Origin: Halococcus agarilyticus
Lineage (GTDB): Archaea > Halobacteriota > Halobacteria > Halobacteriales > Halococcaceae
Direction of reading: 5' to 3'
Length of the DNA stretch: 64,000 bases
Assembly: GCF_000334895.1 (NCBI RefSeq)
Contig: NZ_BAFM01000004.1
Location: forward strand, 124,001-188,000
The translations under genes were made by a program, and so were the position numbers. A model generated the notes under the pieces. The model had not been told where the DNA came from, did no database searches, and worked only from the letters and a program-made list of their open reading frames with translations. Every line of letters starts with the position of its first letter. The first letter of the stretch is position 1. Of this stretch, positions 2,709 through 60,803 are shown piece by piece.

Positions 2709-3947
2709 TCAGGCATTGACGTGTCTGACCTCGTATCCGTGATCGCGGATCGACCGGATGATGGTGCGAGCGTGGCTCGCGCCGGTGGTCTCGACCTCGA
2801 AGACGAGGTAGGCCTCGCCGACGTCGAGTTCGGGGGCCGAACGGTCGTGGCGGACGGTTCGAATGTTGGCGTCGTGGTCGGCGATCACTCCCGACACCTC
2901 CCGCATCTTGCCGGCCTGGTCGTCGATCCGCACCCGGAGCCGGAGGAGCTGCTCGCGGTCGGTGAGCGCGTGGATCAGCACGGTTTGCAGCATCGTCATG
3001 TCGAGGTTCCCGCCGCACAGTAGCGCGAGGACACGCTCGTTTTCGACATCGAGATCATCGCTGAGGATCGCGGCGACCGACGCCGCACCCGCACCCTCGA
3101 CGACCTGTTTCGCGCGTTCGAGGAGGAGGAGGATCGCGCGGGCGATCTCGCCGTCGGTGACGGTCACGATCTCGTCGACGTGTTCCTCGATGAGCGAGAG
3201 CGTGAGATCCGAGATCCCGCCGGTCGCGATCCCGTCGGCGATCGTGTCGACGGAATCGAGCGTCTGTGGGAGCCCCTTGTCGAGGCTGTCCGGGACGGTT
3301 GCGGCCCCCTCGGCCTGGACGCCGACGACGCGCGTCTCGGGCGAGAGCTCGCTGTACGCCGTCGCGATCCCCGAGATCAGGCCGCCGCCGCCGATCGGCA
3401 CCACGACAGTATCGACGTCGGGACAGTCCTCGACCATCTCGACGCCGAGGGTGCCCTGGCCCGCGACGATCGCGGGGTCGTCGTAGGCGTGGACGAACGC
3501 GGTCGCGTCGTCCGCGACGAGCTCTTGAGCATGGTTCATCGCCGCCTGGAAGTCCTGGCCGACGAGTTCGACCGTCGCGCCGTACTCGCGGGTCGCGTCG
3601 ACCTTCGCCTGCGGGGCCCCGTTCGGCATCACGATCGTGGCGTCCATCCCGAGTTTCGTCGCGGCGAGCGCCACGCCCTGCGCATGATTACCGGCGCTCG
3701 CCGCGACGACTCCTTCTGTACGGCCCTCGGCGACGAGCCGGGCGATCTTGTTGTACGCGCCGCGGGGCTTGAACGAGCCGGTCCACTGGAGGTGTTCCAT
3801 CTTCAGGTGAACCTCACCACCAGTAACGTCGTCGAGCGAGGTGCTCCGCTCGACCGGCGTGGGCTTCACTACCGACTCGTCGTCGAGCCGGTCGCGGGCC
3901 GCCTCGATATCCGCGAACGTCACTGGAGGGGCGGCGTCCTGGCTCAT
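2709..3947 (-). CDS. ilvA: threonine/serine ammonia-lyase with ACT domain
   Basis: A PLP enzyme of 412 residues that deaminates threonine to 2-oxobutanoate or serine to pyruvate. The PLP lysine lies in SFKPRGA (Lys60), and the phosphate-binding glycine loop VVPIGGGGLISG near residue 185. Residues of about 325-412 form a C-terminal ACT domain, the layout of the catabolic or shorter threonine dehydratases. The gene begins 1 nt after the stop of the dimethylglycine-oxidase-like gene on the same strand, so the two are almost certainly co-transcribed. That context favours a role in removing serine made from glycine plus methylene-THF, although isoleucine synthesis cannot be excluded. Confidence 0.88.
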   Translation of the reverse strand: MSQDAAPPVTFADIEAARDRLDDESVVKPTPVERSTSLDDVTGGEVHLKMEHLQWTGSFKPRGAYNKIARLVAEGRTEGVVAASAGNHAQGVALAATKLGMDATIVMPNGAPQAKVDATREYGATVELVGQDFQAAMNHAQELVADDATAFVHAYDDPAIVAGQGTLGVEMVEDCPDVDTVVVPIGGGGLISGIATAYSELSPETRVVGVQAEGAATVPDSLDKGLPQTLDSVDTIADGIATGGISDLTLSLIEEHVDEIVTVTDGEIARAILLLLERAKQVVEGAGAASVAAILSDDLDVENERVLALLCGGNLDMTMLQTVLIHALTDREQLLRLRVRIDDQAGKMREVSGVIADHDANIRTVRHDRSAPELDVGEAYLVFEVETTGASHARTIIRSIRDHGYEVRHVNA

Positions 3948-3948
3948 G

Positions 3949-6456
3949 TCAACGGAGAATTCGGTCCATGTCGGGATCGAACAGCGGTTCCTCGCGCACG
4001 GTTGCGGAGTGACGTTCGCCCTCGTAGCTGATATGAACGTCGGTCCCCGGCTCGGCGTGGCTTGCCGGGAGGTAGGCGTAGACGATCCCCGCGTCGATCG
4101 TGTAGCCGTAGTCGGCGCGGCAGCCGTAGCCGATCACGTCGTCGCCATCGAGAACCGGATGCCCCGAATCGACGATCATCCCTGTGTCATCGAGCGTGAT
4201 CGGCACGAGCTTCTCGTCGATCCCGTCCTCGCGGGCCGCTACGAGCGCGTCCTTCCCGATAAAGTCGGTGTCGAGGTCGACCGCGAACTCGATCCCCGCC
4301 TCGTAGGGGTTGTACTCCGGCGTGACGTCGGTTCCCCACAGCCGGTAGCCCTTTTCTAAACTGGTGGAGTCGAGCGCCTCCCACCCCATCGGCACGACGC
4401 CGTACTCCTGGCCCGCCTCCCAGATCGTATCCCAGAGCTGCGCGCCGTACTCGGTGGGTGTGTAGAGCTCCCAGCCGAGTTCGCCGGCGTAGGACAGCCG
4501 AAGCATCGTCACCGGCAGGCTCCCCAGGTAGGTCTCCTCGACGGAGTAGAAGGGGAAGGCGTCGTTCGAGAGGTCGGCCTCGACCAGTGGCTGAAGAACG
4601 TTCCGCGACTCGGGACCGAACACCCCGATCCCCGACCGGCTCGAATCGTGGACGGTGATCGACACCGAGTCGGGCGCGTGCTCGCTGATCCACCGCGAGT
4701 GCAGCGTCGCGGAGTTGCCACCGCCGGTCGTCAGCAGATACCGATCCTCCCCGAGCCGCGCGACGGTCAGATCCGCGAGAATACCGCCATCCTCGTTCAA
4801 CATCGTGGCGTAGCGCATCCGCCCCACCGAGCAGTCCATGTCGTTCGTCAGCAGATGCTGGAGGAATTCCTGGGTTCCCTCGCCTTCGACCTCGATCCCG
4901 GTGAAGGTGGTCATGTCGAACATCGCTACCCGGTCGCGGACCGCCTGGTGTTCGACGCCCTGTGCTTTCGACCAGTTGCGCGTGAGCCAGTCGGGGCGAT
5001 CGGGAACCTTGTACTCGGAGAGGAGGGATTCGTTCGTCTCGTACCACTGGGGGACCTCCCAGCCGTCGGTGTCGTAGAACTCCGCGCCGAGGTCCGTCTG
5101 CCGGTCGTAAAACGGACTTCGTCGGAGCGCGCGCTGGTTCTGCGGTTGTTCGCGCGGGTGGATGAGCTGGTAGACCTCCTGGTACTGCTGGGCCCCGCGG
5201 CCGTAGGTGTACTCCCGACTGCCGGCGTGGGACTGGAACCGACTGATGTGGGCCGGATCGGCGTTCACGCGCTCGCCGTCGAGTCGGGGAGTCCCATCCT
5301 CCATCCATGCGGCGACGATGTCGCCGGCACCGCCCGACTGGGTGACCCAGATCGCGAGCGACCACCACAGCCCGTCGGTGTCCTCATCGGGACCAAGAAT
5401 CGGCATCCCATCGGGCGTGAAACAGAACATCCCGTTCATCTCGGTCTCCCACGAATCCTCGTCGAAGGCCGGGACGAGTTCGCGGGCGGCGTCGTAGGCG
5501 CTCTTGTCGTGGTCGGGGTGGGTGTTCTCGTAGAAGTGGGTGGCGGTGAACTCGCGGAGGGAGGGGTATTCCAGCCCGAGATCGTCGAGTTTCTCGGGGC
5601 CGTAAATGTCCTCGGGGTCGACGAGCAGCGGTTCGTGGTTGTACGACCCCACGCCGTAGGAGTCGCCGTGCTGGCGGAAGTACAGCGAGTAATCCTGATG
5701 GCGGAGCATCGGCTGTTCGATCTCCCGCTCCGCGCCAGCGAGCTCGTCGATCGGATCGCTCACGAGGTACTGGTGTGAGCACGGCACGAGCGGAATATCC
5801 CTGTCGACCATCTCCCCAAAGAGTGGGCCCCAGATGTTGGTCGCGACGAGGAGATCGTCACACGCGATCCGCCCTTGGTCGGTGACGACCGCCTGCACCG
5901 CGCCGTCGGCCGTTTCGATGTCGGTGACGAGGGTGTTGCCATAGAACTCGTGGCCGGCGAGTTCGCTCGCGCGCTCGGCCATCGCCCGCGAGGCGTCGAC
6001 GGCGTGGGCCTTCCCGTCGGTTGGCAGATAGTACCCGCCGTGGATCACAGTCGAATCGATCTGGGGAACGCGCTCGGCGACCCTCTCCGGCGAGAGGAGT
6101 TCGCCGCCCTCCAGGCCGTAGGACTGGCCCCACTCGCGCTTTCGTTTCAGGAACTCCCATCGGTCCTCGGTGTACGCGACCTCGATCCCGCCGGACATCC
6201 GGTAGCTGTCGAGATCGGTGTAGAGGTCGCGGGTGTACGCCGCCATCTCGGTCATCATCTTCCCGCCGGCAGTCTGGAACACCAGTCCGGGGGCGTGCGA
6301 CGTGGAGCCGCCGGTCTCGAACAGCGGTCCACGATCGAGAACGACGACGTCCTCGCGACCCCGTTCGGCGAGATGATACGCCGCCGAGCAGCCGACACAG
6401 CCCGCACCCACGACGACGATCCCGGCGCTCTCCGGCAGTGTGCTCTCCGTGCTCAT
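3949..6456 (-). CDS. dimethylglycine oxidase-like FAD/GcvT fusion protein 1
   Basis: An 835-residue protein matching Arthrobacter dimethylglycine oxidase in length and order: N-terminal FAD/DAO domain (about 1-430), linker, then GcvT folate domain and GcvT C-terminal barrel. The Rossmann motif VVVGAGCVGCSAA starts near residue 14. His54 in GGSTSHAPGLVFQ is the position of covalent FAD attachment in the family. The His of CSHQYL and the Tyr of SLYFRQHGDSYG match active-site residues of the oxidase. Asp562 in GGILADLTVARL is the folate-site aspartate. It should oxidise a methylamine such as dimethylglycine or sarcosine and pass the carbon to THF as 5,10-methylene-THF. It heads an operon with the ammonia-lyase gene and is divergent from folD. 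Confidence 0.88.
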   Translation of the reverse strand: MSTESTLPESAGIVVVGAGCVGCSAAYHLAERGREDVVVLDRGPLFETGGSTSHAPGLVFQTAGGKMMTEMAAYTRDLYTDLDSYRMSGGIEVAYTEDRWEFLKRKREWGQSYGLEGGELLSPERVAERVPQIDSTVIHGGYYLPTDGKAHAVDASRAMAERASELAGHEFYGNTLVTDIETADGAVQAVVTDQGRIACDDLLVATNIWGPLFGEMVDRDIPLVPCSHQYLVSDPIDELAGAEREIEQPMLRHQDYSLYFRQHGDSYGVGSYNHEPLLVDPEDIYGPEKLDDLGLEYPSLREFTATHFYENTHPDHDKSAYDAARELVPAFDEDSWETEMNGMFCFTPDGMPILGPDEDTDGLWWSLAIWVTQSGGAGDIVAAWMEDGTPRLDGERVNADPAHISRFQSHAGSREYTYGRGAQQYQEVYQLIHPREQPQNQRALRRSPFYDRQTDLGAEFYDTDGWEVPQWYETNESLLSEYKVPDRPDWLTRNWSKAQGVEHQAVRDRVAMFDMTTFTGIEVEGEGTQEFLQHLLTNDMDCSVGRMRYATMLNEDGGILADLTVARLGEDRYLLTTGGGNSATLHSRWISEHAPDSVSITVHDSSRSGIGVFGPESRNVLQPLVEADLSNDAFPFYSVEETYLGSLPVTMLRLSYAGELGWELYTPTEYGAQLWDTIWEAGQEYGVVPMGWEALDSTSLEKGYRLWGTDVTPEYNPYEAGIEFAVDLDTDFIGKDALVAAREDGIDEKLVPITLDDTGMIVDSGHPVLDGDDVIGYGCRADYGYTIDAGIVYAYLPASHAEPGTDVHISYEGERHSATVREEPLFDPDMDRILR

Positions 6457-6682: not shown

Positions 6683-6692
6683 CCTTTTTGCG
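6683..6692 (+). promoter_or_regulatory. TATA-like element of folD 1
   Basis: CCTTTTTGCG lies with its T-run about 26 nt before the ATG at 6713, consistent with a leaderless transcript. Confidence 0.45.
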
Positions 6693-6712
6693 TGACTCGC
6701 CGACCTCGACGC

Positions 6713-7603
6713 ATGACCGAAATCATCGACGGTGAGGCGGTCGCGAGCGAGATCAGGGACGGCGTCGCCGAGTGCGTCGACACCCTCGGCGGCGCGGGCG
6801 TCACGCCGGGGCTCGCCACCGTCCTGATGAGCGACGACGACGCCAGCGAGACGTACGTCTCGATGAAACAGCAGGACTGCGAGGAGGTCGGGATCGCAGC
6901 CCACGACATCGAGATCGATCCCGACGCGCCCGCCGAAGAGCTGTACGACACCGTCGACGAGCTGAACGCGGACGACGCGATCGACGGCATCCTCGTCCAG
7001 ATGCCGGTGCCCGACCACGTCGACGACCGCGAGGTCCTTCGGCGGACTCGTCCCGCGAAGGACGTCGACGGGTTCCACCCTGAGAACGTCGGCCGTCTGG
7101 TCGCCGGCGACGCCCGATTCAAACCCTGCACGCCTCACGGCATCCAGAAACTCCTCGAAGCCTACGACATCGAGACCGAGGGGGCTGACGCGGTGGTGGT
7201 CGGTCGCTCGGACATCGTGGGCAAGCCGATGGCGAACCTCCTGATCCAGAAAGCGCCCTTCGGGAACGCGACGACGACCGTCTGTCACTCCCGGACGACC
7301 GACCTCGACGCGAAGCTCGGCAACGCCGACATCGTGGTCGCCGCGATCGGCGTGCCGGAGTTCGTCGACGGCTCGCTGCTCAAAGAGGACGCGACCGTGA
7401 TCGATGTCGGGGTCAACCGTGTCGAGACCGACGACGGCGACTCCGAACTCGTCGGCGATGTCGACTTCGAGAGCGCACAGGAGGTCGCGGGGGCGATCAC
7501 GCCCGTTCCGGGTGGCGTGGGTCCGATGACCCGCGCAATGTTGCTGTACAACACCGTCAAGGCGGCGAGTCAACAGCACGGCGTCGAGGTCGAACTGCCC
7601 TGA
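6713..7603 (+). CDS. folD: FolD: methylene-THF dehydrogenase / methenyl-THF cyclohydrolase
   Basis: A 296-residue bifunctional folate enzyme that interconverts 5,10-methylene-THF and 10-formyl-THF with NADP. The catalytic pair is present in TYVSMKQQD (Tyr48, Lys52). KDVDGFHPENVGRL is intact, as is the dinucleotide-site motif VVGRSDIVGKPMANLL and the C-terminal PVPGGVGPMTRAML. The ATG at 6713 is preferred over an upstream in-frame ATG because it gives the family N-terminus and has a TATA-like element 27 nt upstream. It is divergent from the dimethylglycine-oxidase-like gene, whose product it would use. A second, diverged copy lies at 16418-17308. Confidence 0.93.
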   Translation: MTEIIDGEAVASEIRDGVAECVDTLGGAGVTPGLATVLMSDDDASETYVSMKQQDCEEVGIAAHDIEIDPDAPAEELYDTVDELNADDAIDGILVQMPVPDHVDDREVLRRTRPAKDVDGFHPENVGRLVAGDARFKPCTPHGIQKLLEAYDIETEGADAVVVGRSDIVGKPMANLLIQKAPFGNATTTVCHSRTTDLDAKLGNADIVVAAIGVPEFVDGSLLKEDATVIDVGVNRVETDDGDSELVGDVDFESAQEVAGAITPVPGGVGPMTRAMLLYNTVKAASQQHGVEVELP

Positions 7604-8061: not shown

Positions 8062-10635
8062 TCAGAGCAGCGGTTCTTCCTGAACTGTCGCCGCGTAGCG
8101 CTCGCCCTCGTAGCGGACGTCGACCCCGGTGCCTGGCTCGGCGTACTCGGGCGGGAGGTAGGTGTAGATCACGCAGGCCCCCACGCTGTAGCCGTACTCG
8201 GCGGCGTGGACGTATCCGAGGACTTCGTCGCCATCGGTCGGGAGGACCGGTCGATCGGCGAGCACCATCTGGTCGGGGTCGTCGAGCGTGAGACAGGCCA
8301 CTTCGTGGTCGATATCGCCGTTCGCGGCGGCTTCGATTGCCTCCTTCCCGAGGAAGTCGGTGTCGAAATCGACCGCGAAGCCGAGGCCGGCCTCGTAGGG
8401 GTCGTGCTCGGTGTGGAGGTCCTCGCCCCACAGCCGGAACCCCTTCTCGATCCGGAGTGCGTCGAGCGCGCCGTTGCCGTAGGGGCGGATGTCGTACTCC
8501 GCACCCGCGTCCATGACGTGCTCCCAGAGGCGTTCGCCGTACTCAGAGGGTGTGTACAGCTCCCAGCCGAGTTCGCCGGCGTAGGACAGCCGGAGCGCGG
8601 TCACCGGGATGTTCTCCACGAACGTGCGCTGGCTCGAATAGAAGGGGAACGCCTCGTCCGAGAGATCGGCGTCCATGACCTTCGAGAGGGTCTTTCTGGC
8701 GTCGGGACCGGTGCAGACCATCGCCGCGAGGTTGGAGGTAACGTCGTTGACCACCACGTCCTCGGGGGCCTGACTCCGGACCCACGCGAGGTGGTTGCTG
8801 CCGACCTCCCGCCCGGTCGTCAGGAGGAGGTAGCGATCCTCGTCGACCCTGGTGACGGTGACGTCGGCGCGAACGCCGCCGCCCTCGTTGCACATGAGTG
8901 TATAGCGAATCTGTCCCACGTCGAGATCCATGTCGTTGGTGCAGAGCCACTGGAGGAACCGCCCGGCGTTGCTTCCGACGAGTTCCATCTTGTTGAACGA
9001 CGTCATGTCGTGGAGCCCGACGCCGTTCCGGACGTTCAGCGCCTCCGCCCCCTCGATCGGCGACCAGTACTTCCCTTCCCAGCCTTCTCGATCCGGGATG
9101 CTATCGCCGTACTCCGCGAGGAGATCGGCGTTCGAGTCGAACCAGTGTGGCTCCTCCCAGCCTGCCTCGGCCCAGAGTTCGGCATCGCGTTCCTTGTGAC
9201 TGTGGTACATCGGCGTCCGCCGGATATCGCGCTGGTGTTCGGTCCAGACCCACTTGGGATGGATGATGGAGTAGAGGTTGCGGTACTCCTCGCCGCCGAG
9301 GTCCTTCGCGAAGTCCCAGCTCCCCTCGTGGGGCGCGAATCGGTTGACATTACAATTCCGGAGGTCGATCGGGCCGTCGGGGAGGCAGGGAACGCCGGTC
9401 TCCATCCACTCGGCGAGCGCCTTGCCCGCACCGCCCGCGTGGGTGATCCAGACCGCCGCGGCGGTCCAGAGGCCCGGACACTCCTGGACCGGGCCCAGAA
9501 CTGGAAGTCCGTTCGGCGACGCGGAGTACATCCCGTTGTACTTGTAATCGAGGCGCTTGCCCTTCGTGGCGGGGAGGAGTTCGTCGCTCGCCGTTCGCGG
9601 CGCTTTCTCCTGGCGATCGGGATGGGTCGCGTTGTTCAGGTGGTACTCGGTGAAGTCGTGGACCGACGCCTGGTTGCCATCCTCCTCGTTGCCACCCAGC
9701 TTCGCGGGATCGGGGACGATGGATTCGTGGTTGTACGATCCGATCCCGTACCGATCACCGTGCGTCCGGAAGTACATCGCGTTGTCCTGATCCCGGAGGA
9801 TCGGTCGGTCGGGATCCTGGAGGAGAACCTCACTCTTGTCGCCGGAGACTGACTTGTAGTTCTCGTATACGGGATCGTCGGTGACGTCCTGCCTCGCCCC
9901 TTCGAGTTCGGCGAGCGGCTCCGTGATGGTGTACTGGTGTTCGACCGGCGCGATCGGGAGGTGGATGTCGAGTTTCTCGCTCAGCTGGCGCGCCCAGATG
10001 TTGGTCGCCACCACGACCTCGTCGCACTCGACCCGGCCGTTCTCGGTCACGATCGCCCGAACGCCGTCGCCGTCGGTCTCGATGTCCTCGACCGCGGTGT
10101 GGCCGACGAACTCCGCACCCATCGACTCGGCTGCCTCGGCGAGCGCCGCACACGCCCGGACGCCCGAGGCCTGGCCGTCGGTCGGCGAGTAGTACCCGCC
10201 CTCGATGGCGTCGGGATCGACCAGCGGGAGCTTTTCCGCGACTTCGTCGGGACTCAGAAGCTGTGGCTCCGGCACACCCCACGCCTCGGCCCACTCGACC
10301 CGTCGCTGGAGGTAATCCATCCGCTCGTCGCTCCGCGCGACCTCGATCCCGCCCGTCTCGTTGTAGACCGGTTCGTCCTCGTCGCGTTCGAGCGAGGAGT
10401 AGAGCCGACGGCTGTACGTCGCGAACTTCGAGAGCACCTTCGGCTCGTCGGTCTGAAACATGATTCCCGGTGCGTGGGTCGACGAGCCACCCGTGGTGGG
10501 GAGCGGTCCCCGGTCGACCACGAGCACGTCTTCCCGACCGAGGTCGGCGAGGTGATACGCCGTGTTGCAGCCGACGATACCCGCGCCGATGACGACGGTT
10601 CCTGCCTCGCTCGGCATCGTGTTCGCATTGCCCAT
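8062..10635 (-). CDS. dimethylglycine oxidase-like FAD/GcvT fusion protein 2
   Basis: An 857-residue paralogue of the protein at 3949-6456 with the same FAD/DAO plus GcvT layout. VVIGAGIVGCNTA is the Rossmann motif, and His54 in GGSSTHAPGIMFQ is the flavin-linking position. VEHQYTITEP and MYFRTHGDRYGIG hold the active-site His and Tyr, and Asp591 in GGVRADVTVTRV is the folate-site aspartate. It carries an insertion of roughly 25-30 residues after the HQY segment that copy 1 lacks. The best guess is that the pair divides successive demethylations (dimethylglycine and sarcosine) or uses different methylamines. A weak TATA-like element (minus-strand GAATAC) lies about 27 nt upstream of the ATG at 10635. 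Confidence 0.87.
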   Translation of the reverse strand: MGNANTMPSEAGTVVIGAGIVGCNTAYHLADLGREDVLVVDRGPLPTTGGSSTHAPGIMFQTDEPKVLSKFATYSRRLYSSLERDEDEPVYNETGGIEVARSDERMDYLQRRVEWAEAWGVPEPQLLSPDEVAEKLPLVDPDAIEGGYYSPTDGQASGVRACAALAEAAESMGAEFVGHTAVEDIETDGDGVRAIVTENGRVECDEVVVATNIWARQLSEKLDIHLPIAPVEHQYTITEPLAELEGARQDVTDDPVYENYKSVSGDKSEVLLQDPDRPILRDQDNAMYFRTHGDRYGIGSYNHESIVPDPAKLGGNEEDGNQASVHDFTEYHLNNATHPDRQEKAPRTASDELLPATKGKRLDYKYNGMYSASPNGLPVLGPVQECPGLWTAAAVWITHAGGAGKALAEWMETGVPCLPDGPIDLRNCNVNRFAPHEGSWDFAKDLGGEEYRNLYSIIHPKWVWTEHQRDIRRTPMYHSHKERDAELWAEAGWEEPHWFDSNADLLAEYGDSIPDREGWEGKYWSPIEGAEALNVRNGVGLHDMTSFNKMELVGSNAGRFLQWLCTNDMDLDVGQIRYTLMCNEGGGVRADVTVTRVDEDRYLLLTTGREVGSNHLAWVRSQAPEDVVVNDVTSNLAAMVCTGPDARKTLSKVMDADLSDEAFPFYSSQRTFVENIPVTALRLSYAGELGWELYTPSEYGERLWEHVMDAGAEYDIRPYGNGALDALRIEKGFRLWGEDLHTEHDPYEAGLGFAVDFDTDFLGKEAIEAAANGDIDHEVACLTLDDPDQMVLADRPVLPTDGDEVLGYVHAAEYGYSVGACVIYTYLPPEYAEPGTGVDVRYEGERYAATVQEEPLL

Positions 10636-10963: not shown

Positions 10964-11821
10964 ATGTCGGTAGCGCGTTCGGCCGCCGCCTCGGACGGGG
11001 CCACCGATCTGCTCACCGACCTCCGGTTCGAGCTGATGCCGTTCGACAGCTTCGAGGGTCAGATGGGCCACCTGCCGGACGGGGCGACGATCGCCATCAC
11101 GACCTCCCCACAACTGGGACTCGACGCGACGATCGAGTGGGCCGAGAAAGCCGCCGAGCAGGGGTTCGCGGTCAGCCCTCACATCGCCGCACGCTACGTC
11201 CGCGACGAAAAGCATCTCGAAGAGATCGCGCGCCGGCTCACCGACGCCGGCATCACGGACATCTTCGTGCCAGGCGGCGACCGCGAGGAACCGATCGGCG
11301 AGTTCGAGTCGGCCTACGACCTCCTTACCACGCTCGACGATCTCGACTACGCGTTCGAGGAGGTGGGGATCACCGGCTATCCCGAGGGCCACGAGTTTCT
11401 CGACGACGCGACGCTCGCCGAGGCCATGAAGAAGAAAGCGCCCTACGCGACCTACATCGTGACCCAGCTCTGCTACGATCCCGACGCCGTCGTCGAGTGG
11501 ATCGAAGCGGTTCGGGAGCGGGGCGTCGATCTCCCAGTAGAAATCGGGATCCCTGGCGTGATGAAGTACCAGCGGCTGCTGAAGATCTCCCAGAAGGTCG
11601 GTGTGGGCGACTCGGTCCGCTTTCTGAAGAAGACGACCGGCGTTCTGGGATTCGTGCGCCAGCTCGTCGGCTCGCGCGGGAAGTACACCCCCGACGATCT
11701 CATCGACGGGCTCGCACCCTACGCCGACGATCCCCACTACGACATCCGGGGCCTCCACATCTACACGTTCAACCAGACCTCCGACATCGAGTCGTGGCGG
11801 TACGGCCGGCTGGAAGAATAG
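10964..11821 (+). CDS. metF: methylenetetrahydrofolate reductase-family protein
   Basis: A 285-residue TIM-barrel protein of the MetF family, which interconverts 5,10-methylene-THF and 5-methyl-THF with a flavin. Conserved stretches include FELMPFDSFEG near the N-terminus, the segment IFVPGGDREEPIGEFESAYD, and VTQLCYDPDAVVEWIE, which corresponds to the TQFxFD region. The C-terminus fits a catalytic domain without a regulatory extension. In this island it would either make methyl-THF for methionine synthase (30338-32427) or, run as an oxidase, reclaim methyl-THF made by the DmdA-like protein. It is convergent with the cupin gene, separated by 2 nt. Confidence 0.85.
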   Translation: MSVARSAAASDGATDLLTDLRFELMPFDSFEGQMGHLPDGATIAITTSPQLGLDATIEWAEKAAEQGFAVSPHIAARYVRDEKHLEEIARRLTDAGITDIFVPGGDREEPIGEFESAYDLLTTLDDLDYAFEEVGITGYPEGHEFLDDATLAEAMKKKAPYATYIVTQLCYDPDAVVEWIEAVRERGVDLPVEIGIPGVMKYQRLLKISQKVGVGDSVRFLKKTTGVLGFVRQLVGSRGKYTPDDLIDGLAPYADDPHYDIRGLHIYTFNQTSDIESWRYGRLEE

Positions 11822-11823
11822 GA

Positions 11824-12222
11824 CTACCGATACCGATCCGACTCGTCGGGCATCACGTACTCGCCGAAATCCTCGACCGTGCCGACTGGTGGCGCACCGA
11901 ACAGGATCCAGACGTGGGTCTCGTCGGTGTGGTTGCAGAGCCCCCGGATCGGATCGGGACCGAACCGGACGACGCCGCCTTCGGGCACGTCGTGGACCTC
12001 GTCCTCGATGCCGACCTGACCGTCGGTCACCGCGACGTAGATCTCCTCTTGGCGCTCATGGGCGTGCGGGTCGAGCACCTCACCGGGATCGAGTTCGACG
12101 GCGTTGACCCGCATTTCGGTCGCGCCGAGGTGGTCGGTCAGCTTCCGGTGTTCGACCGCCGACTCGTTGAACGGCTCGGCCTCGACGTCCGTGTAGTCCA
12201 CGATGGCGAAGTCGTCGCTCAT
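11824..12222 (-). CDS. single-domain cupin protein
   Basis: A 132-residue protein with one cupin barrel. The first cupin motif is visible as DPHAHERQEEIYVAV (two His, Glu, then Tyr). The second motif is degenerate: GPDPIRGLCNH has Arg where the third metal-binding His is usually found, with a His four residues later. The start lies 15 nt after the stop of the formate-THF ligase gene on the same strand, so they probably form an operon. A role with formate, formyl-THF or methylated substrates is suggested by context only. Small cupins include DMSP lyases, isomerases and sensors, and the sequence alone does not choose among them. Confidence 0.75.
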   Translation of the reverse strand: MSDDFAIVDYTDVEAEPFNESAVEHRKLTDHLGATEMRVNAVELDPGEVLDPHAHERQEEIYVAVTDGQVGIEDEVHDVPEGGVVRFGPDPIRGLCNHTDETHVWILFGAPPVGTVEDFGEYVMPDESDRYR

Positions 12223-12237: not shown

Positions 12238-13956
12238 TTAGAACAGCCCGGAGACCGTGCCATCGGGATCGATGTCCATCTCGGCGGCAGCGGGGTCGGC
12301 CGGGAGGCCAGGCAGCGTCAGCACATCGCTAGTGAGCGCGACGAGGAAGCCCGCGCCGGCGGAGGGGTAGATCTCCTGAATTTCGAGCTCCCACCCTGTC
12401 GGCGCGCCCTTCCACTCGGCGGTGTCGCTGAGCGAGTGGAAGGTTTTGGACATCACCACTGGCACGTCGTCGAACCCCAGCGACTCCATCCGCTCGATGT
12501 CGTCCTGCGCGCTGCTCTGGAACGTGACCGACTCTGCGCCGTAAATTTCGGTCGCGATCGTCTCGATTTTCTCCTCGATCGAGTCGTCGACGTCGTAGAG
12601 GTACTCGAACTCTTCGTCGTCCTCGTCGATCGCGGTCATGAGCTTCCGGGCGAGGTCCGCACCGCCCTCGCCGCCCTCGCCGAACACCGTCGATTCGGCG
12701 GCCTCGACCCCGAGATCGTCGCGGCAGTGATCGAGAACGGCCTGCACCTCCTCGTCGGCGTCGCCCGGGAATCGGTTGAGCGCCACCACGACCGGCACGC
12801 CGAACTTCCGGAGGTTCCTGACGTGGGCGTCGAGGTTCTCGAACCCGCCCCGAACGGCCTCGACGTCGGTTTCTTCGAGCGCGTCGAGGTCAGCGGGCCA
12901 CATGTCCTTGCCGTGGTACTTCAGCGCGCGGATCGAGGCGACGAGCGTCACTGCGGCGGGTTCCATCTCGCCGAACCGACAGACCACGTTCATGAACTTC
13001 TCGGCCCCCAGATCGGAGCCGAAGCCCGCCTCGGTGATAAGGTAATCCGAGAGCTTCCGCGCGACGTCGTCGGCGATCAGCGAGTTGGTTCCGTGGGCGA
13101 TGTTGGCGAACGGACCGCCGTGAACGAACGCGGGCGTGCCCTCGATGGTCTGGACGATGTTCGGCTTCAGGGCGTCCTTCAGCAGGATGGTGACTGCGCC
13201 CGTCGCCTCGATGTCGTCGGCGGTCACGGGGTCGCCGTCCTCGTCGTAGGCGACGATGATCCGTGCGACGCGCTCCTTGAGATCGGCGAGATCGTCGGCG
13301 AGACAGAGGACGGCCATCAGTTCGGAGGCTGCCGTCAGGATGAACCCGTCCTCGCGGGGCACGCCGGTGACGTCGCCGCCGAGGCCGACCACGGTCTCGC
13401 GGAGCACCCGATCGTTCATGTCCATCGCACGGGGCCACTCGACCCAGTTGACCGCGATGTCGAGCTCGTTGCCCTGCTTGATGTGGTTGTCGAGCATCGT
13501 CGAGATGAGGTTGTGCGCCGACGTGAGCGCGTGGAGATCGCCCGTGAAGTGGAGGTTGATGTCCTCCATCGGCAGTACCTGAGAGTAGCCGCCGCCGGCC
13601 GCGCCGCCCTTCACCCCGAAGACGGGGCCGAGCGAGGGCTCGCGGATGGCGGCGAGGGCGTCCTCGCCGATGTGGTTGAACGCCTGGCTCAGCCCCACAG
13701 TAGTGACGGTTTTGCCCTCGCCCATCGGGGTGGGTGTCATTCCTGTCACGAGAATCATCTCGCCGTTATCGCGATCGGATTCCCGGACGCGCTCGATCGC
13801 GTCGAACGTGAGCTTCGCGGTGTCGTCGCCGTAGAGGTCGAGGTCGTCGGCCGCGAGCCCGAGCGGTTCGACCACCTCGGTGATCGGATCGGTGTCCACG
13901 CTCTGGGCGATCTCGTAATCCGTCGGGAACCCGTCATCTTCGTCCGAGGATGCCAT
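12238..13956 (-). CDS. fhs: formate-tetrahydrofolate ligase
   Basis: A 572-residue enzyme joining formate and THF with ATP to 10-formyl-THF; the reverse reaction yields formate and ATP. The ATP-binding loop TPMGEGKTVTTVGLSQA and the downstream PSLGPVFGVKGGAAGGG are diagnostic. FTGDLHALTSAHN and a glycine-rich C-terminal segment are also present. The ATG at 13956 removes ten extra upstream residues and has a TATA-like GAAAAG 27 nt before it. In a setting where FolD and two dimethylglycine oxidases feed the C1 pool, running in reverse to excrete formate and gain ATP is plausible. The cupin gene follows in the same operon. Confidence 0.93.
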   Translation of the reverse strand: MASSDEDDGFPTDYEIAQSVDTDPITEVVEPLGLAADDLDLYGDDTAKLTFDAIERVRESDRDNGEMILVTGMTPTPMGEGKTVTTVGLSQAFNHIGEDALAAIREPSLGPVFGVKGGAAGGGYSQVLPMEDINLHFTGDLHALTSAHNLISTMLDNHIKQGNELDIAVNWVEWPRAMDMNDRVLRETVVGLGGDVTGVPREDGFILTAASELMAVLCLADDLADLKERVARIIVAYDEDGDPVTADDIEATGAVTILLKDALKPNIVQTIEGTPAFVHGGPFANIAHGTNSLIADDVARKLSDYLITEAGFGSDLGAEKFMNVVCRFGEMEPAAVTLVASIRALKYHGKDMWPADLDALEETDVEAVRGGFENLDAHVRNLRKFGVPVVVALNRFPGDADEEVQAVLDHCRDDLGVEAAESTVFGEGGEGGADLARKLMTAIDEDDEEFEYLYDVDDSIEEKIETIATEIYGAESVTFQSSAQDDIERMESLGFDDVPVVMSKTFHSLSDTAEWKGAPTGWELEIQEIYPSAGAGFLVALTSDVLTLPGLPADPAAAEMDIDPDGTVSGLF

Positions 13957-13977
13957 GTGCCATCGTTCTCCGGAGTG

Positions 13978-13985
13978 CCTTTTCA
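13978..13985 (-). promoter_or_regulatory. TATA-like element of fhs
   Basis: On the minus strand this reads GAAAAGGC, centred 26 nt upstream of the ATG at 13956. A stronger GCATAAAAAGGC lies further upstream at about 14008-14019. Confidence 0.4.
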
Positions 13986-14195
13986 ACGTTCGTGTGAAGC
14001 ACGTCCAGCCTTTTTATGCGATGAACGACGACGATCGCTGCTCGGCGATCACAAAACCGTCGTACAGCGCCCCGGTACCGCGTCGGCCGCGGCTCCTTGG
14101 CGACGCTGAACGAACGATCCTCGCGAAATCCTTTAGGCGTCCTCCACCGGAGAGAGTGTCGACCGGTTCGCCGGAACGAACCGATCGGCCCCTCG

Positions 14196-15755
14196 ATGAA
14201 CGAACCACGCGTCGTCACGACCCGCTCCGCGTTCGCCGGAACCGCCCGCGAGGCTCCACGAGCAGCGCGCGTGCCGGTCGAAGTTCGAGTGACTGTCGAC
14301 GATCCGTTCCTCGCTTATCGGCGCGCACGCGGTCGTGAGCAGACGGAACGAGCCGATGGAGTGTACCTCGAAACCACTGGTGGTCAGGCGGGCTGGGGGT
14401 ACTTCGCCATCGACCCAGTGTTCCGACTGCAAGTCGGTGACACCTTCGAACCCGCCGACGACGCCGAACCGTCACCCTCGCTTGCGGAACTCGCCGGGCT
14501 GCTCGATCGCGAGACGCTCGTCCGCGGCGACTGCGACGTGCCCTACCCCTGCGGGGCGTTCGGCTGGCTCTCCTACGACATCGCCCGCGAGCTGGAGGAT
14601 CTTCCCGATACCACCGTCGACGATCGCGGCCTACCCCGACTCCAGCTCGGGGTCTTCGATCGGGTGGCCGCATGGGAGACGGGATCGGCGGACGAGACGA
14701 CGCTTCGTGTGACGGCCTGTCCCCGGATCGGCGACGACCCCGCCGCGGCGTACGAGCGGGGTCGCGAGCGTGCGCTCGATCTCGCTCGCGCCGCCATCAC
14801 GGGCGACCCGTCGATCGGTGACGCACCGATCGAGGCCGACGACGCCACGTTCGAGAGCGACTGCACTCCCGAGGAATTCGCCGAGCGGGTGCGGCGGGTC
14901 AAACAGTACGTCCGCGACGGCGACACGTTTCAGGCGAACGTCTCCCAGCGGCTGCGCGCGCCGGCCGCTGTCCATCCCGTCGCGGCCTTTGCTGCGCTCC
15001 GGCGGGTGAACCCCGCCCCCTACTCGGCGCTGCTGGAGTTCCCCGGCGTAGATCTCGTGAGTGCCTCGCCGGAACTCCTTCTGGATGTGAACGAGGACGA
15101 ACTGCTGACCGAACCGATCGCCGGCACCAGGCCACGCGGTGACACCCCCGAGGAAGACGCCGAGCTGGAACGCGATCTTCTCACGGACGAGAAGGAACGC
15201 GCCGAACACGCGATGTTGGTCGATCTCGAACGCAACGATCTCGGGAAGGTGAGCGAGTACGGCAGCGTCGAGGTTTCGGAGTATCGCCGGGTCGACCGCT
15301 ACTCCGAGGTGATGCATCTCGTCTCGCTGGTCGAGGGACGTCTCCGCGCGGATCGGGACCTCGTGGATGCCGTCGCCGCGACCTTCCCCGGCGGGACGAT
15401 CACCGGTGCGCCCAAACCCCGAACGATGGAGATCATCGACGAGGTCGAGACGACCCGGCGCGGGCCCTACACCGGCTCGATCGGGGTTTTCGGCTTCGAC
15501 GGCCGCGCCACGCTGAACATGACGATCCGGACGCTGGTGCGCCGCGACGAGGAGTACTTCCTCCGAGTGGGTGCGGGGATCGTCCACGACTCCGAGCCCG
15601 AGAGCGAGTACGCCGAGACCATGGACAAGGGCCGCGCGCTGATTACGGCGATCGACGACGCGCTCGGCGACCGTGGCGAGCTGGCGGTCGAGCGCGCGAC
15701 CGCGGCGGACGGCGGTGCAGCCGCGGCCGACGACGGGGAGGTCGGCGAACGATGA
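14196..15755 (+). CDS. pabB: aminodeoxychorismate/anthranilate synthase component I
   Basis: A 519-residue chorismate-binding enzyme. The catalytic half carries [11 protein letters not shown], the loop [25 protein letters not shown] and [20 protein letters not shown]. The loop has Ala (PIAGT), the form typical of anthranilate synthase TrpE; many aminodeoxychorismate synthases have PIKGT. The folate setting and the partner gene argue for PabB, so the choice stays open. The ATG at 14196 was chosen over one 99 nt upstream, because the extra residues are Arg-rich and look non-coding. It overlaps the amidotransferase gene by 4 nt (ATGA) and forms a two-gene operon. Confidence 0.8.
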
Positions 15756-16387
15756 CCCGGATCCTCGTGATCGACAACTACGACTCCTTTGCCTACAATC
15801 TCGTCCAGTACGCCGGTACGGCGGTCGACGCCCCCGAGAACGGCGAGGTCGTGGTGCGGCGCAACGACGCGATCGACGTCGCGGGGGTTCGAGAGCTGGA
15901 TCCCGACGGGATCGTCGTTTCCCCAGGACCGGGCACGCCCGCCGAGGCCGGCGTGTCGATCCCGGTGTTCCGCGAGCTCGACTACCCGACTCTCGGGGTG
16001 TGTCTCGGTCATCAGGCGCTCTGTGCGGCCCACGGCGCGCCCGTCGGCCACGCGCCCAGCGTGGTCCACGGCAAACCCTCGACGGTCCGTCACGACGATC
16101 GAGGGGTCTTCGCAGGGCTGCCCGAGACGTTCGCCGCCGGTCGGTATCACTCCCTCGCGATCGAGCGCGACGACCTCCCCGATCCTCTCGTCGAAACGGC
16201 GCGATCCGAGGACGCCGAGACGACGGACGAGGATTCGCCAGCCCACACCGACGGCGTCGTGATGGGCGTGCGCCACCGCGAACTCCCCCACGAGGGCGTC
16301 CAGTTCCACCCCGAAAGCATCCTGACCGACGTCGGGATGGAAATGATGAAAAACTTCGAGCGGCGGTGTCGCCCGAACGATCGGTAG
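15752..16387 (+). CDS. pabA: glutamine amidotransferase subunit (PabA/TrpG type)
   Basis: A 211-residue class I amidotransferase that supplies ammonia to the chorismate enzyme encoded just upstream. [14 protein letters not shown] at the N-terminus, [11 protein letters not shown], the nucleophile Cys in GVCLGHQAL, and the His/Glu pair in QFHPESILT are all present. Its start overlaps the stop of the component I gene (ATGA), so translation is probably coupled. The product, p-aminobenzoate (with a lyase encoded elsewhere) or anthranilate, depends on component I. It faces the second folD gene tail to tail. Confidence 0.87.
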
Positions 16388-16424
16388 CACCAGGGGCTGA
16401 GCGCCTGATACTGGTGCTCAGCCC
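16386..16424. terminator. double inverted repeat between convergent pabA and folD 2
   Basis: Two perfect inverted repeats interlock. AGCACCAG (16386-16393) pairs with CTGGTGCT (16411-16418). GGGCTGAGC (16394-16402) pairs with GCTCAGCCC (16416-16424). The order is X-Y-X'-Y', so the two stems can alternate or form a pseudoknot-like fold. The element overlaps the stop codons of both convergent genes and could act as a shared terminator or 3' end structure. It lacks the T-run typical of archaeal terminators. Confidence 0.4.
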
Positions 16425-17308
16425 TCGGCGTCCGCCTGGCGCTCGGCCGCGCGCGCCACGTTCGCAACGAGCATGGCGAGCGTAACTGGGCCGACGCCAC
16501 CGGGGACGGGCGTGATCGCCCCCGCGACCGACTCCGCACTCTCGAAGTCGACGTCGCCGACGACCTCGGTGCTTCCCTCGCTTCCCGATTCGACTCTGTT
16601 GGCGCTCACGTCGACGACCGTGACGCCAGGCGAGAGCATCGAGCCATCGACGAGCCCCGGCACACCGACGGCAGTCACGACGACGTCCGCGCGGCGGGTC
16701 ACGCTCCCGAGATCCGAGGTTCGAGAGTGACAGACCGTCACTGTGGCGTTGCCGTCCGGGCACTTCTGGAGCAGGAGGTTCGCGAGCGGCTTCCCGACGA
16801 TGGCCGAGCGGCCGACGATAGCGATGTCCTCGCCGGCGATCGGAATCTCGTGTGCTGTGAGCAGGCGGCGGACCGCGGCGGGCGTCGCCGGGAGATAACG
16901 GGGATCGTCCCGAACGAGCCGGCCGAGGTTCGCGAAGCTGAGACTGTCGACGTCTTTTGTTGGGTCGAGCCGTCGCCGCACGCCGGCGAGCGCGACGTGA
17001 TCCGGCAGCGGGATCTGGACGAACACGCCGTCGATTTCGGGGTCGGCGCACAGTCGGTCGACCGTATGATGGAGTCGCTCCGCGGGTGCACCGGGATCGA
17101 TTCGGACGTCCTGACTTGCGATGTCGAGGTCGCGACACGCCGCGTGTTTCAGTTCCACGAACCGCTCGTCGGCCGGATCGTCGCTCATCAGGACCGTGGC
17201 GAGCGTCGGCGTGACGCCCCGCTCGTCGAGTTCGCGGACGCGATCGTGCACGTCGGCCCGGATCTCGGCCGCGACCGGCTCGCCGCGCAGCCGTTCGGCG
17301 GACGGCAT
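16418..17308 (-). CDS. FolD paralogue 2 with altered active-site motifs
   Basis: A 296-residue FolD homologue, the same length as copy 1. The catalytic Lys is kept (RFVELKHAA, Lys54), but the usual preceding Tyr is Phe. KDVDGFHPENVGRL of copy 1 is KDVDSLSFANLGRL here. The nucleotide-site segment IVGRSAIVGKPLANLL and PVPGGVGPVTLAML are intact. The fold and NADP site thus look sound while the folate side has changed. It may have kept only one of the two activities or handle another pterin. It lies between the pabBA operon, which it faces, and the DmdA-like gene, from which it diverges. Confidence 0.85.
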   Translation of the reverse strand: MPSAERLRGEPVAAEIRADVHDRVRELDERGVTPTLATVLMSDDPADERFVELKHAACRDLDIASQDVRIDPGAPAERLHHTVDRLCADPEIDGVFVQIPLPDHVALAGVRRRLDPTKDVDSLSFANLGRLVRDDPRYLPATPAAVRRLLTAHEIPIAGEDIAIVGRSAIVGKPLANLLLQKCPDGNATVTVCHSRTSDLGSVTRRADVVVTAVGVPGLVDGSMLSPGVTVVDVSANRVESGSEGSTEVVGDVDFESAESVAGAITPVPGGVGPVTLAMLVANVARAAERQADAEG

Positions 17309-17775: not shown

Positions 17776-17811
17776 CATAAATGGGTGGTGCTGTTAACTC
17801 TTTCATTTATG
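17776..17811 (+). promoter_or_regulatory. promoter with flanking inverted repeat before the DmdA-like gene
   Basis: CATAAATG (17776-17783) and its exact inverse CATTTATG (17804-17811) are separated by 20 bp. The downstream arm coincides with the TATA position, about 27-34 nt before the ATG at 17838. A dimeric regulator bound to both arms would cover the TATA box, so this is a good operator candidate. The HTH_10 regulator encoded just downstream is the natural candidate to bind it. Confidence 0.5.
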
Positions 17812-17837
17812 ATCCGGAGGAACAGTGTTCGAAGGCG

Positions 17838-19232
17838 ATGGCAGAACCCGAACCACCGACCACCGAACGCGATTCGCACCCGAACCACCCGAACGTCGAC
17901 CAGTCCGACCGCGTGCTCCCGCGAAATCTGCGCCAGTCCGGCGACCCCGGAATCGAGATGCTGGTCTCGACCCGCGTCCGGAAATCGCCGTTCTTCCACA
18001 AGTCGTTCAACGAGGAGGGTGCATGGCGCGCGACGGTCTACAACCGGATCTACCACCCCCGGGGGCTGGTCGAACCCGAGGACGGCGGAGCGATGGCGGA
18101 GTACGAGGCACTGACCGAGGCCGTGACGCTGTGGGACGTCGCGGTCGAGCGCCAGATCCGCGTGAAAGGTCCCGATGCGGAGGCGCTCACCGACTACGTC
18201 ATCACCCGGGACGCGACCGAGATCGAGCCGATGCACGGCAAGTACGTCATCCTCTGCAACGAGGACGGCGGCGTGCTGAACGACCCCATTCTACTCCGCG
18301 TCGAGGACGACGAGTTCTGGTTCTCGATCTCCGATTCCACGCTCATGCAGTGGCTCGAAGGGGTGAACGTCGGCAAGGAGTTCGACGTCGCAATCGACGA
18401 GATCGACGTCGCCCCCATGCAGATTCAGGGTCCGCGCTCGGAGGACGTAATGGTCGAGGTCGTCGGCGAGGAGGTTTCCGAGATCCCCTACTACGGTCTG
18501 ATGGAGGCCGAAATCGACGGCTGTCCCGTGCTCGTGAGCCAGACCGGGTTCTCGGGCGAGAAGGGCTTCGAGATCTACGTGAAAGAGGCGATGGAGAACG
18601 CAGAGCGGGTGTGGGACCCCGTACTGGAGACCGTGAAAGACCACGGTGGGATGCAGATCGCGCCGGGCCACCACCGTCGGATCGCGGCGGGCATCCTCTC
18701 GTGGGGCCAGGACATGGATCACGAGACCTCGCCGTTTCAGGTCAACCTCGGCTATCAGGTCCCCGACGACAAAGCGGGCGACTACGTCGGCAAGGAGGCA
18801 CTCGAAGCCCAGCAGGAGCGGATCGAGAGCGGCGAGTATCCGTTCAACCTCAAGATGGTCGGGCTGAAGATGGCGGGCGAGCCGATCCGGGACTACGCGC
18901 CCGACTTCTGGCTCGTCTCCGATCCCGATACGGGCGAGGAGTGTGGGTACATGACGTCGCCGTGGCACAACCCCGAACTGGAGACCAACATCGGCCTCGG
19001 CTTCGTGCCGGCGGAGAAGCTCCAGCAGGAGACCGACGCGGCGCTCAACGACGAGATCTACGAGGAGGATCTCGACATCGAGTTTCAGGTGCATCTCCCC
19101 GACGAGTACGCCGAGGAGTCTGGCGAGTCGGTGTACGCCACGGTGGCCGAAGTGCCGTTCAAGGAGTCGGTCAACCCGAGCGCGCGCGAGCAGGCCAAGC
19201 TGAACGCGCGAAAGGACGCCGAATCCGAGTAA
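17838..19232 (+). CDS. DmdA-like GcvT-fold demethylase (putative DMSP:THF methyltransferase)
   Basis: A 464-residue protein of the GcvT/DmdA family. Its middle part (about 40-370) follows the marine DMSP demethylase closely as I recall it: RVRKSPFF near the start, TLWDVAVERQIRVKG, NEDGGVLNDPILLRVEDDEF with the folate-site Asp149, WFSISDS, APMQIQGPRSED and GFSGEKGFEIYV. It is longer than bacterial DmdA (about 365) through an N-terminal extension and a C-terminal tail. The predicted reaction is methyl transfer from DMSP (or a similar sulfonium or betaine) to THF, giving 5-methyl-THF. The ATG at 17838 has a TATA-like element 27 nt upstream. Substrate identity is inferred; other GcvT-type demethylases remain possible. 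Confidence 0.72.
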   Translation: MAEPEPPTTERDSHPNHPNVDQSDRVLPRNLRQSGDPGIEMLVSTRVRKSPFFHKSFNEEGAWRATVYNRIYHPRGLVEPEDGGAMAEYEALTEAVTLWDVAVERQIRVKGPDAEALTDYVITRDATEIEPMHGKYVILCNEDGGVLNDPILLRVEDDEFWFSISDSTLMQWLEGVNVGKEFDVAIDEIDVAPMQIQGPRSEDVMVEVVGEEVSEIPYYGLMEAEIDGCPVLVSQTGFSGEKGFEIYVKEAMENAERVWDPVLETVKDHGGMQIAPGHHRRIAAGILSWGQDMDHETSPFQVNLGYQVPDDKAGDYVGKEALEAQQERIESGEYPFNLKMVGLKMAGEPIRDYAPDFWLVSDPDTGEECGYMTSPWHNPELETNIGLGFVPAEKLQQETDAALNDEIYEEDLDIEFQVHLPDEYAEESGESVYATVAEVPFKESVNPSAREQAKLNARKDAESE

Positions 19233-19339: not shown

Positions 19340-19984
19340 TCACTCCTCCAAGAGCGCCGTCTCGACGAGTTTGGCCGTCCCACGACGGATGCGACCGCCG
19401 ATGGCGGTCGGTGAGAGATCGAGTTCGTCCGCGACGTCGGCGAGGCGGGCCTCGCGCGGCTCCTCGAAGTAGCCGTTCTCGTAGGCCGTCACGAGCGCGA
19501 CGCGCTGAGCCTCGGTCAGGCCCGTGGGTTCGCCACCGTTCCACTCGTCCTGGCGGAACATCTGCTGGAGGGTGAAGGAGATGTCCTCGTCGTCGCAGTA
19601 GTCGGCGAGCGCGGCGAGCGCTTCCCGGTCGGGGAACTGGAGTCGGACCGTCCAGCCGCGGGCGCTGGTGGTGGCCTCGCGCATCAGCCCGCTGAGTTCG
19701 CTCGTCTTCGGCGAGACGAGCTTCGTCTCGGGCGGGTGGCGGATCCGGTAGACGCGGGTCGCCGCCGAACCGGCCACCAACTGCCACTCCGCGACCGTGT
19801 GATCCTCGTCGAGTCTGGTCTCGAACTCCTCGCCGGGGTTCTCGACGAGGAAGAAGAAGATCCCCGTCTCGGGGTCGGTGCCGGACTGGGGCACGACTCG
19901 GATGGTCACGTCGGGACACTCGCGGATCGTGGGCGCGAGCGAGAGGTCCGGGTGGTCGATGTCGACGACGGCGATCAGGTTCAC
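19340..19984 (-). CDS. HTH_10 (bacterio-opsin-activator type) transcriptional regulator
   Basis: A 214-residue regulator if translation begins at the GTG at 19984, which gives the usual start VNLIAVVDIDHPDLSL; the frame continues upstream but becomes Arg-rich. An N-terminal sensor-like region of about 150 residues precedes the C-terminal HTH_10 domain, visible as LTEAQRVALVTAYENGYF, then ADVADELDLSPTAIGGRIR. This family includes Bat and DmsR. It is convergent with the DmdA-like gene and is the only regulator in the island, so control of neighbouring demethylation genes is a reasonable inference. Confidence 0.85.
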   Translation of the reverse strand: MNLIAVVDIDHPDLSLAPTIRECPDVTIRVVPQSGTDPETGIFFFLVENPGEEFETRLDEDHTVAEWQLVAGSAATRVYRIRHPPETKLVSPKTSELSGLMREATTSARGWTVRLQFPDREALAALADYCDDEDISFTLQQMFRQDEWNGGEPTGLTEAQRVALVTAYENGYFEEPREARLADVADELDLSPTAIGGRIRRGTAKLVETALLEE

Positions 19985-20385
19985 GACCGGCCACCCCGTC
20001 GTGCCTGGTTCGGCGTGCCGGCACGGCGATGCACCCGTCGCCAGGCGGTCGGCGAGGCGGCAGTCGGCACGGCCGGCCGCCGAACGCATCGGGCGGCCGA
20101 AACCGAGGGCCGAAACGGCGATTCACGCGTGGGCGATCGTCGATCGTCGTCGGTCCGAGGATCGATCACTGTTCTCGTGTCTCATGAACCGATTCGCCGA
20201 CAGTCGGTTAAACCGTTCGGATCGCCATGGCGCGTCGCGTGCCGATCGGACGGCGGACCGTCGAGCGTGGACGGCGGAGCCACGATCCCCGACGATCGGC
20301 CCCGTGTCCATCGCACGCTCGAAGCGAGGCTGGACCGAAACGGCGACGCGAACAGGGACGAATTTGGGTGTGAGTTCGGGGTATG

Positions 20386-39902: not shown

Positions 39903-40098
39903 GATGTGGCCCAGTGGGAAGACGGTCAGCGTGTAATGATCTACCTGCACCAGCGAACGTGTCGTCACTGATGTCCGAGGGCAACCGACAACTTTCGTGG
40001 GCACTCCTTTCGATACCATCCGACCGTCGCCCACAACAATAGGAGTATGTTGCTGGTTTCGGGCGGGTGATACCGCTGCCCACGAGTGTTGTATGGGG

Positions 40099-47184: not shown

Positions 47185-47202
47185 AGCTCGCTACTGCGAG
47201 CT
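47185..47202. terminator. hairpin between convergent fumC and giant gene
   Basis: AGCTCGC-TACT-GCGAGCT is a perfect 7-bp stem with a 4-nt loop that contains the end of the stop codon of the giant gene. It could serve as a shared 3' end structure. There is no T-run beside it. Confidence 0.35.
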
Positions 47203-56298: not shown

Positions 56299-56320
56299 GG
56301 GACGAAGCACACCGGTAGAT

Positions 56321-59616: not shown

Positions 59617-59639
59617 ATTCTCGATGGGGGCGCGACGCC

Positions 59640-59647
59640 CAAATAGG
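59640..59647 (-). promoter_or_regulatory. TATA-like element of the acyl-CoA dehydrogenase gene
   Basis: On the minus strand CCTATTTG is centred about 27 nt before the ATG at 59616. Confidence 0.4.
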
Positions 59648-59720
59648 TCGCGTAAACCGGAAGCAGTAGGTCAGAGGTTGTCGGCTCTGTCCTCTGTGGA
59701 CTGTGCAGCGAGTCTTTCAA

Positions 59721-60779: not shown

Positions 60780-60803
60780 ACGAGCTACCACAAAGGTTGT
60801 GAG

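Follow-up and report, generated by a model that had tools for sequence, protein, structure and literature searches.

A haloarchaeal protein that resembles the DMSP demethylase DmdA is, in our best reading, probably a glycine betaine:THF methyltransferase that makes methyl-THF and whose step can be taken over by a Rieske oxygenase. The protein is encoded in Halococcus agarilyticus, within a 64,000-nucleotide stretch of one contig (hereafter the window):

17838..19232, + strand: DmdA-like THF methyltransferase gene, 464 aa; proposed glycine betaine:THF methyltransferase, SAR11_1265-type orthologue

Glycine betaine is a major osmolyte of hypersaline and marine water. To our knowledge, the betaine demethylases described so far require O2 (Rieske), homocysteine (BHMT) or cobalamin (MtgB). 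If the proposed function is correct, THF-dependent demethylation would be a further route, the gene beside metF in SAR11, among the commonest ocean bacteria, would gain a function, and the presence of MTHFR and formate–THF ligase alongside dimethylglycine oxidase in only some haloarchaea would be explained. In DmdA searches based on similarity, betaine enzymes may also be mistaken for DMSP enzymes. Searches limited to open-access papers turned up no account of a betaine:THF methyltransferase; the activity may be new.

The gene and its predicted fold

The reading frame is open over positions 17781–19232 of the + strand (483 aa), and position 17838 corresponds to Met20 of that frame. Homologues can be aligned only from about residue 28–33 onward, and a gene of the same genus with 96% identity (locus L007) has a stop codon upstream, its frame starting at residue 17; 17838 is therefore the likely true start. 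The ORF from this position and five sequence motifs had been named in a preliminary description of the DNA, and all five are present. Acidic residues make up 21% of the protein and basic residues 8%, a balance usual in haloarchaeal proteins.

The Pfam GCV_T domain was detected with E = 4e-44 (151 bits against a cut-off of 25.6), and the C-terminal barrel, GCV_T_C, fell slightly below its cut-off (21.2 vs 25.9). Among solved structures, the best match was DmdA of P. ubique (3tfh, E = 6.7e-43), followed by T-proteins. At the level of sequence, chance is excluded as the source of the similarity to DmdA and GCV_T. We also obtained a template-free AlphaFold model from 27 aligned sequences, structure prediction having been suggested in the preliminary description. 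The model has a core pLDDT of mostly 80–97 and a pTM of 0.78, with the first ~40 residues predicted to be disordered, and its closest match in the PDB is again DmdA 3tfh (E = 4e-36; TM 0.90 when normalised by target length), only slightly ahead of T-proteins. The above-threshold domain and the predicted three-domain fold together assign the protein to the GCV_T superfamily, as anticipated from the motifs. Relative to DmdA there are ~95 extra residues, distributed over tails at both ends (~40 residues at the N-terminus), a short insert near residue 84 and insertions around residues 330 and 400. The earlier estimate of about 100 additional residues was thus nearly right in size, but its attribution to the termini alone has to be revised to include the internal inserts.

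To compare the active sites, we aligned 24 members of the query family with 11 true DmdAs, using P. ubique numbering. The THF residues D108, S122, Y95 and E204 occur in all 24 query-family sequences and Y206 in 23 of them, and the THF site is therefore intact. Asp149, singled out earlier as the folate-site residue, aligns with the invariant Asp108. These observations agree with the methyl transfer to THF that had been proposed, and we infer that methyl-THF is very probably the product. Hernandez et al. (2020) named W171 as a DMSP-specific residue (PMC7487153); it corresponds to position 197 in P. ubique numbering. Every query-family sequence has Phe at this position (24/24), which is Phe238 in the H. 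agarilyticus protein of 464 aa, whereas the true DmdAs carry Tyr (7/11) or Trp (4/11). Because only four true DmdAs have Trp, position 197 is not decisive alone, and we dropped Trp197 as a marker for DMSP. At nineteen sites, DmdA and the query family are each fixed for a different residue.

Placement outside the DmdA family

The preliminary description had put the protein forward as a DmdA-like candidate for DMSP demethylation, but membership of DmdA did not survive comparisons of score and phylogeny. The NCBIfam DmdA model (PRK12486) is the best NCBIfam model for the protein (E = 2e-69), but the score of 234.1 bits compares with a curated cut-off of 410, and true DmdAs of SAR11 and Roseobacter genomes reach 442–692 bits. 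The cut-offs of the GcvT models were not reached either (TIGR00528, 134 vs 236 bits; PRK00389, 160 vs 300). In a maximum-likelihood tree of 62 proteins, the H. agarilyticus sequence and 17 other haloarchaeal sequences form one group (100/100), nested (99/87) among bacterial orthologues with 62% (Roseovarius), 61–63% (other bacterial genomes) and 54% (three SAR11 genomes) identity to it. This nesting suggests a bacterial origin, with haloarchaea having received the gene from bacteria. A long branch separates the joint haloarchaeal and bacterial clade (100/100) from the true DmdA clade (100/99), and a Marivivens-type group (sister to DmdA) and a large SAR11_1303-like group also stand apart from it. 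Forcing the query family and DmdA into a single clade was rejected (p-AU 0.0004). Membership of the DmdA family is ruled out by the score, the tree and this AU test.

The preliminary description had also stated that grouping outside the DmdA clade with proven non-DMSP enzymes would speak against DmdA function; the protein does group outside, but in a clade of its own that holds no proven enzyme. Two SAR11 genomes (G242, G243) and one Roseovarius genome (G246) carry a canonical DmdA above cut-off together with an orthologue of the DmdA-like gene, and the two are therefore paralogues with different roles. No canonical DmdA was found among 242 haloarchaeal genomes at the thresholds used. Sequence comparison thus points to a probable THF-dependent methyltransferase from a subfamily that neighbours DmdA and has no characterised member. 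With DmdA (P. ubique 3tfh/3tfi/3tfj; PRK12486) it shares the fold, the THF residues and probably a redox-neutral methyl transfer to THF; it differs in its separate clade, its ~31% core identity, a score of about half the curated value, the residue at 197, its greater length and its gene partners.

The gene island

The genes that surround the DmdA-like gene are predicted to act in betaine uptake, demethylation and C1-folate metabolism:

632..2425, − strand: BCCT transporter of the glycine betaine/DMSP class (NCBIfam betaine_BCCT, 500 bits; bcct above cut-off)
2709..3947, − strand: threonine/serine ammonia-lyase, proposed to convert serine to pyruvate (NCBIfam ilvA_1Cterm above cut-off; conserved island neighbour)
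3949..6456, − strand: second FAD + GcvT-domain enzyme, dimethylglycine/sarcosine dehydrogenase-like (soxA/GcvT models; ~46–50% to the dimethylglycine oxidase-like family)
6692..7603, + strand: FolD copy 1, methylene-THF dehydrogenase/cyclohydrolase (NCBIfam PRK14167, 536 bits, above cut-off)
8062..10635, − strand: FAD + GcvT-domain enzyme, dimethylglycine oxidase-like, proposed to demethylate dimethylglycine or sarcosine with formation of methylene-THF (full-length match to dimethylglycine oxidase 1pj5, E = 1.7e-168)
10964..11821, + strand: MTHFR, sole genomic copy, proposed to oxidise methyl-THF to methylene-THF (Pfam MTHFR, 7.7e-13)
11824..12222, − strand: small protein next to Fhs, cupin-like by sequence pattern alone (NCBIfam gave no match; 91% conserved and in the same place in genome G044)
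12238..13986, − strand: formate–THF ligase (Fhs), proposed to convert formyl-THF to formate and ATP (NCBIfam PRK13505, 809 bits, above cut-off)
14097..16387, + strand: PabB (14097–15755) and PabA-type glutaminase (15752–16387), p-aminobenzoate supply for folate (NCBIfam PabB-clade2 and trpG_papA above cut-off)
16418..17308, − strand: FolD copy 2, divergently oriented relative to the DmdA-like gene (NCBIfam PRK14167, 369 bits)
19340..20089, − strand: Bat/HTH_10-type regulator, candidate local regulator (Pfam HTH_10 and BAT)

Plasmids of Haladaptatus, Haloarcula marismortui, Halobellus and Halorientalis bear a similar island, to which GlyA, formate dehydrogenase, DHPS or DHFR is added in some cases. 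In Haloarcula hispanica, too, the DmdA-like gene is plasmid-borne. MTHFR lies within reach of the DmdA-like gene in 16 of the 26 haloarchaeal loci examined. Other genomes have HTH genes related to the candidate regulator next to the DmdA-like gene or next to its paralogue. A 2011 study already remarked that haloarchaeal dimethylglycine oxidase genes lie near BCCT genes, but gave no first demethylation step (PMC3102087). The H. agarilyticus genome has neither a BHMT-family gene nor a Rieske ring-hydroxylase family gene, which rules out both as an alternative first step there.

Several haloarchaeal betaine islands also contain creatininase-type and AstE/aspartoacylase-type genes (L046:23739-24470, L048:22669-23397, L179), suggesting that creatinine or N-acyl compounds are further sarcosine sources in those islands.

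Co-distribution and exchange with a Rieske oxygenase

As a broader comparison, we recorded gene presence in one fixed set of 242 haloarchaeal genomes; the p values treat genomes as independent although they share ancestry. The DmdA-like gene is present in 52 genomes and MTHFR in 54, namely all 52 and two others (Fisher 5e-51, kinship ignored), with the two genes at most 5 kb apart in 38 of the 52. Dimethylglycine oxidase-like enzymes occur in 78 genomes, including every genome with the DmdA-like gene. Among these oxidase-positive genomes, Fhs accompanies the DmdA-like gene in 51 of 52 cases vs 1 of the 26 that lack the gene (p = 4e-18, kinship ignored), and MTHFR is absent from all 26.

The genomes without the DmdA-like gene have a different candidate for the first step. 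A GbcA/CntA-type Rieske gene is present in 24 of the 26, vs 10 of the 52 with the DmdA-like gene (p = 4e-10, kinship ignored), and when genera are scored by majority, 15 have the DmdA-like gene only, nine the Rieske gene only, one both and one neither (p = 3e-5). In 32 of 34 genomes, no more than 10 kb separates the Rieske gene from a dimethylglycine oxidase gene. Its best NCBIfam model is GbcA, at 132 bits against a cut-off of 670, so we can only infer its substrate; the best solved structure is carnitine monooxygenase CntA. Ten genomes carry both genes, five or six of them in one cluster. The pattern looks like a non-homologous replacement of one step. The Rieske product is formaldehyde, and no MTHFR is therefore expected beside it, whereas a producer of methyl-THF needs MTHFR; the distribution of MTHFR fits this exactly. 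One of the Rieske genes (L040:23058-24194) represents a second candidate archaeal betaine demethylase.

About a dozen genomes have a second copy of the DmdA-like gene, with ~70% identity, outside the betaine island (L186-L195, L047). In roughly half of these genomes its neighbour is an HTH regulator gene, and it may act on a different substrate.

Orthologues in SAR11 and related groups

In all three SAR11 genomes, the orthologue of the DmdA-like gene has an MTHFR gene as its overlapping or immediate neighbour. We equate these orthologues with SAR11_1265 because of the metF adjacency and the relation to DmdA, and not on the basis of the HTCC1062 sequence. The arrangement of SAR11_1264 (metF) and SAR11_1265 has been reported (PMC3160333), and the two mRNAs shift together (PMC5069961). 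The SAR11_1265-type "aminomethyltransferase" of Pelagibacterales resembles the haloarchaeal protein in its clade, 54% identity, MTHFR partner and extended length (456 aa).

Haloarchaeal homologues were previously placed in a "non-DmdA" clade with F171 by Hernandez et al. (2020), in whose gene tree Halobacteriales served to calibrate a node (PMC7487153). That clade shares with our family the haloarchaeal homologues and the same Trp-to-Phe change; however, its structure was read there as dimethylglycine-dehydrogenase-like and no pathway was given, whereas our AlphaFold model is closest to DmdA. SAR11_1303-type proteins (Roseobacters, SAR11, Marinobacterium, Halomonas) also belong to the DmdA superfamily and keep the THF residues, but they form another clade, have Trp or Tyr at 197 and are often in an operon with OsmC, enoyl-CoA hydratase and acyl-CoA ligase. 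The SAR11_1303-like group is a large uncharacterised DmdA-sister group in which the order Lrp regulator, DmdA-like gene, OsmC, enoyl-CoA hydratase and acyl-CoA ligase is frequent (L036, L038, L049, L058, L074 and others).

Proposed betaine pathway

In the pathway we propose, betaine would enter via the BCCT transporter, and the DmdA-like protein would transfer one of its methyl groups to THF, giving 5-methyl-THF and dimethylglycine in a redox-neutral reaction like that of DmdA. MTHFR would oxidise the methyl-THF to methylene-THF, and the two FAD/GcvT fusion enzymes would take dimethylglycine and sarcosine to glycine, yielding methylene-THF. FolD and Fhs would then convert the C1 units to formate and ATP, and glycine would reach pyruvate through GlyA (where linked) and serine dehydratase. 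In other haloarchaea, the GbcA/CntA-type Rieske oxygenase would stand in for the DmdA-like protein at the first step. GbcA and BHMT share the proposed net step, betaine to dimethylglycine, but they are unrelated proteins that work without THF, one depending on O2 and releasing formaldehyde, the other depending on homocysteine.

Gene context and co-distribution point to glycine betaine as the probable main substrate. For the family as a whole we lean, a little less firmly, towards a DmdA-sister lineage of haloarchaea and Alphaproteobacteria, including SAR11, that acts as a direct betaine:THF methyltransferase without O2, cobalamin or homocysteine, that would achieve full folate-based oxidation of the three betaine methyls together with MTHFR, FolD and Fhs, and that is swapped with a Rieske betaine oxygenase in haloarchaea. 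Several observations count against the betaine reading: the growth of H. walsbyi was not improved by betaine (PMC3102087), BHMT is already available in SAR11 to take the first methyl of betaine (PMC3160333), ten haloarchaeal genomes bear both the DmdA-like and the Rieske gene, and the ~70% paralogue lies outside the island.

Alternative functions

The substrate named in the preliminary description was DMSP, as a source of carbon and sulfur. A functional archaeal DmdA would convert BCCT-imported DMSP to methylmercaptopropionate, and BCCT carriers are able to take DMSP. DmdA is the closest solved structure, and betaine and DMSP are close analogues, both accepted by the Phaeobacter enzyme Bmt (PMC12366255). 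The window also holds a DmdB-like ligase and an acyl-CoA dehydrogenase 39–43 kb from the DmdA-like gene and an SBP56 gene (methanethiol-oxidase family; 39997–41547) 21 kb away. Against this, the protein lies outside the DmdA clade with Phe at 197, bacteria with the orthologue also hold a true DmdA, and the 52/52 link with dimethylglycine oxidase is left unexplained. The ligase and dehydrogenase (58471–62499) are DmdC/DmdB-like but generic, the AMP-ligase having 3-(methylthio)propionyl-CoA ligase as its best NCBIfam model (596 vs 822 bits), and they have no match in the haloarchaeal neighbourhoods searched, where no DmdB/C/D-type link was found. SBP56 is commoner with the DmdA-like gene over all 242 genomes (p = 1e-7, kinship ignored), but the association is confounded, because within oxidase-positive genomes it disappears (32/52 with the gene vs 14/26 without, p = 0.63); SBP56 tracks betaine genomes in general and was set aside as support for this route. 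The linked and co-distributed genes belong to betaine demethylation and C1-folate oxidation, and DMSP is now an improbable main substrate, but it may be a side substrate.

The second DMSP methyl is a still weaker candidate. A methylmercaptopropionate demethylase would have to draw on a thioether, which gives up its methyl group far less readily than an onium compound, and the DMSP link is missing in haloarchaea, which lack canonical DmdA at the thresholds used. This role was speculated for SAR11_1265 in 2011 (PMC3160333), and SBP56 (L159:5014-6387) and enoyl-CoA hydratase genes lie near the SAR11 MTHFR–orthologue pair; we nevertheless regard it as extremely unlikely. Nearly as hard to sustain is a GcvT-like aminomethyltransferase that would form methylene-THF from the iminium product of the neighbouring FAD enzymes. 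The fold is the same and T-proteins are the next best structures, but those FAD enzymes have a GcvT domain of their own, and the strict MTHFR tie and the closer kinship to DmdA favour methyl-THF. Finally, the methyl donor could be another quaternary or sulfonium compound, for example carnitine, proline betaine, a choline-derived compound or an N-methylated amino acid, with a product that enters dimethylglycine/sarcosine or C1-folate metabolism. The MTHFR/Fhs link is substrate-neutral, creatininase and AstE-type genes stand beside some clusters, and a paralogue that has an HTH gene to itself hints at two or more substrates. However, the DmdA-like gene and the Rieske gene tend to replace each other, and dimethylglycine oxidases are always present; both indicate a dimethylglycine-yielding step, and we consider such a donor unlikely. 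Glycine betaine remains the reading we prefer.

Two further features of the window deserve mention. Methionine synthase is encoded near the C1-folate genes as two adjacent ORFs, with MetE N-like and C-type halves (30338–32427). A 3039-codon ORF occupies positions 47191–56310 of the − strand; its N-terminus looks secretion-like, and it may encode a giant surface protein.
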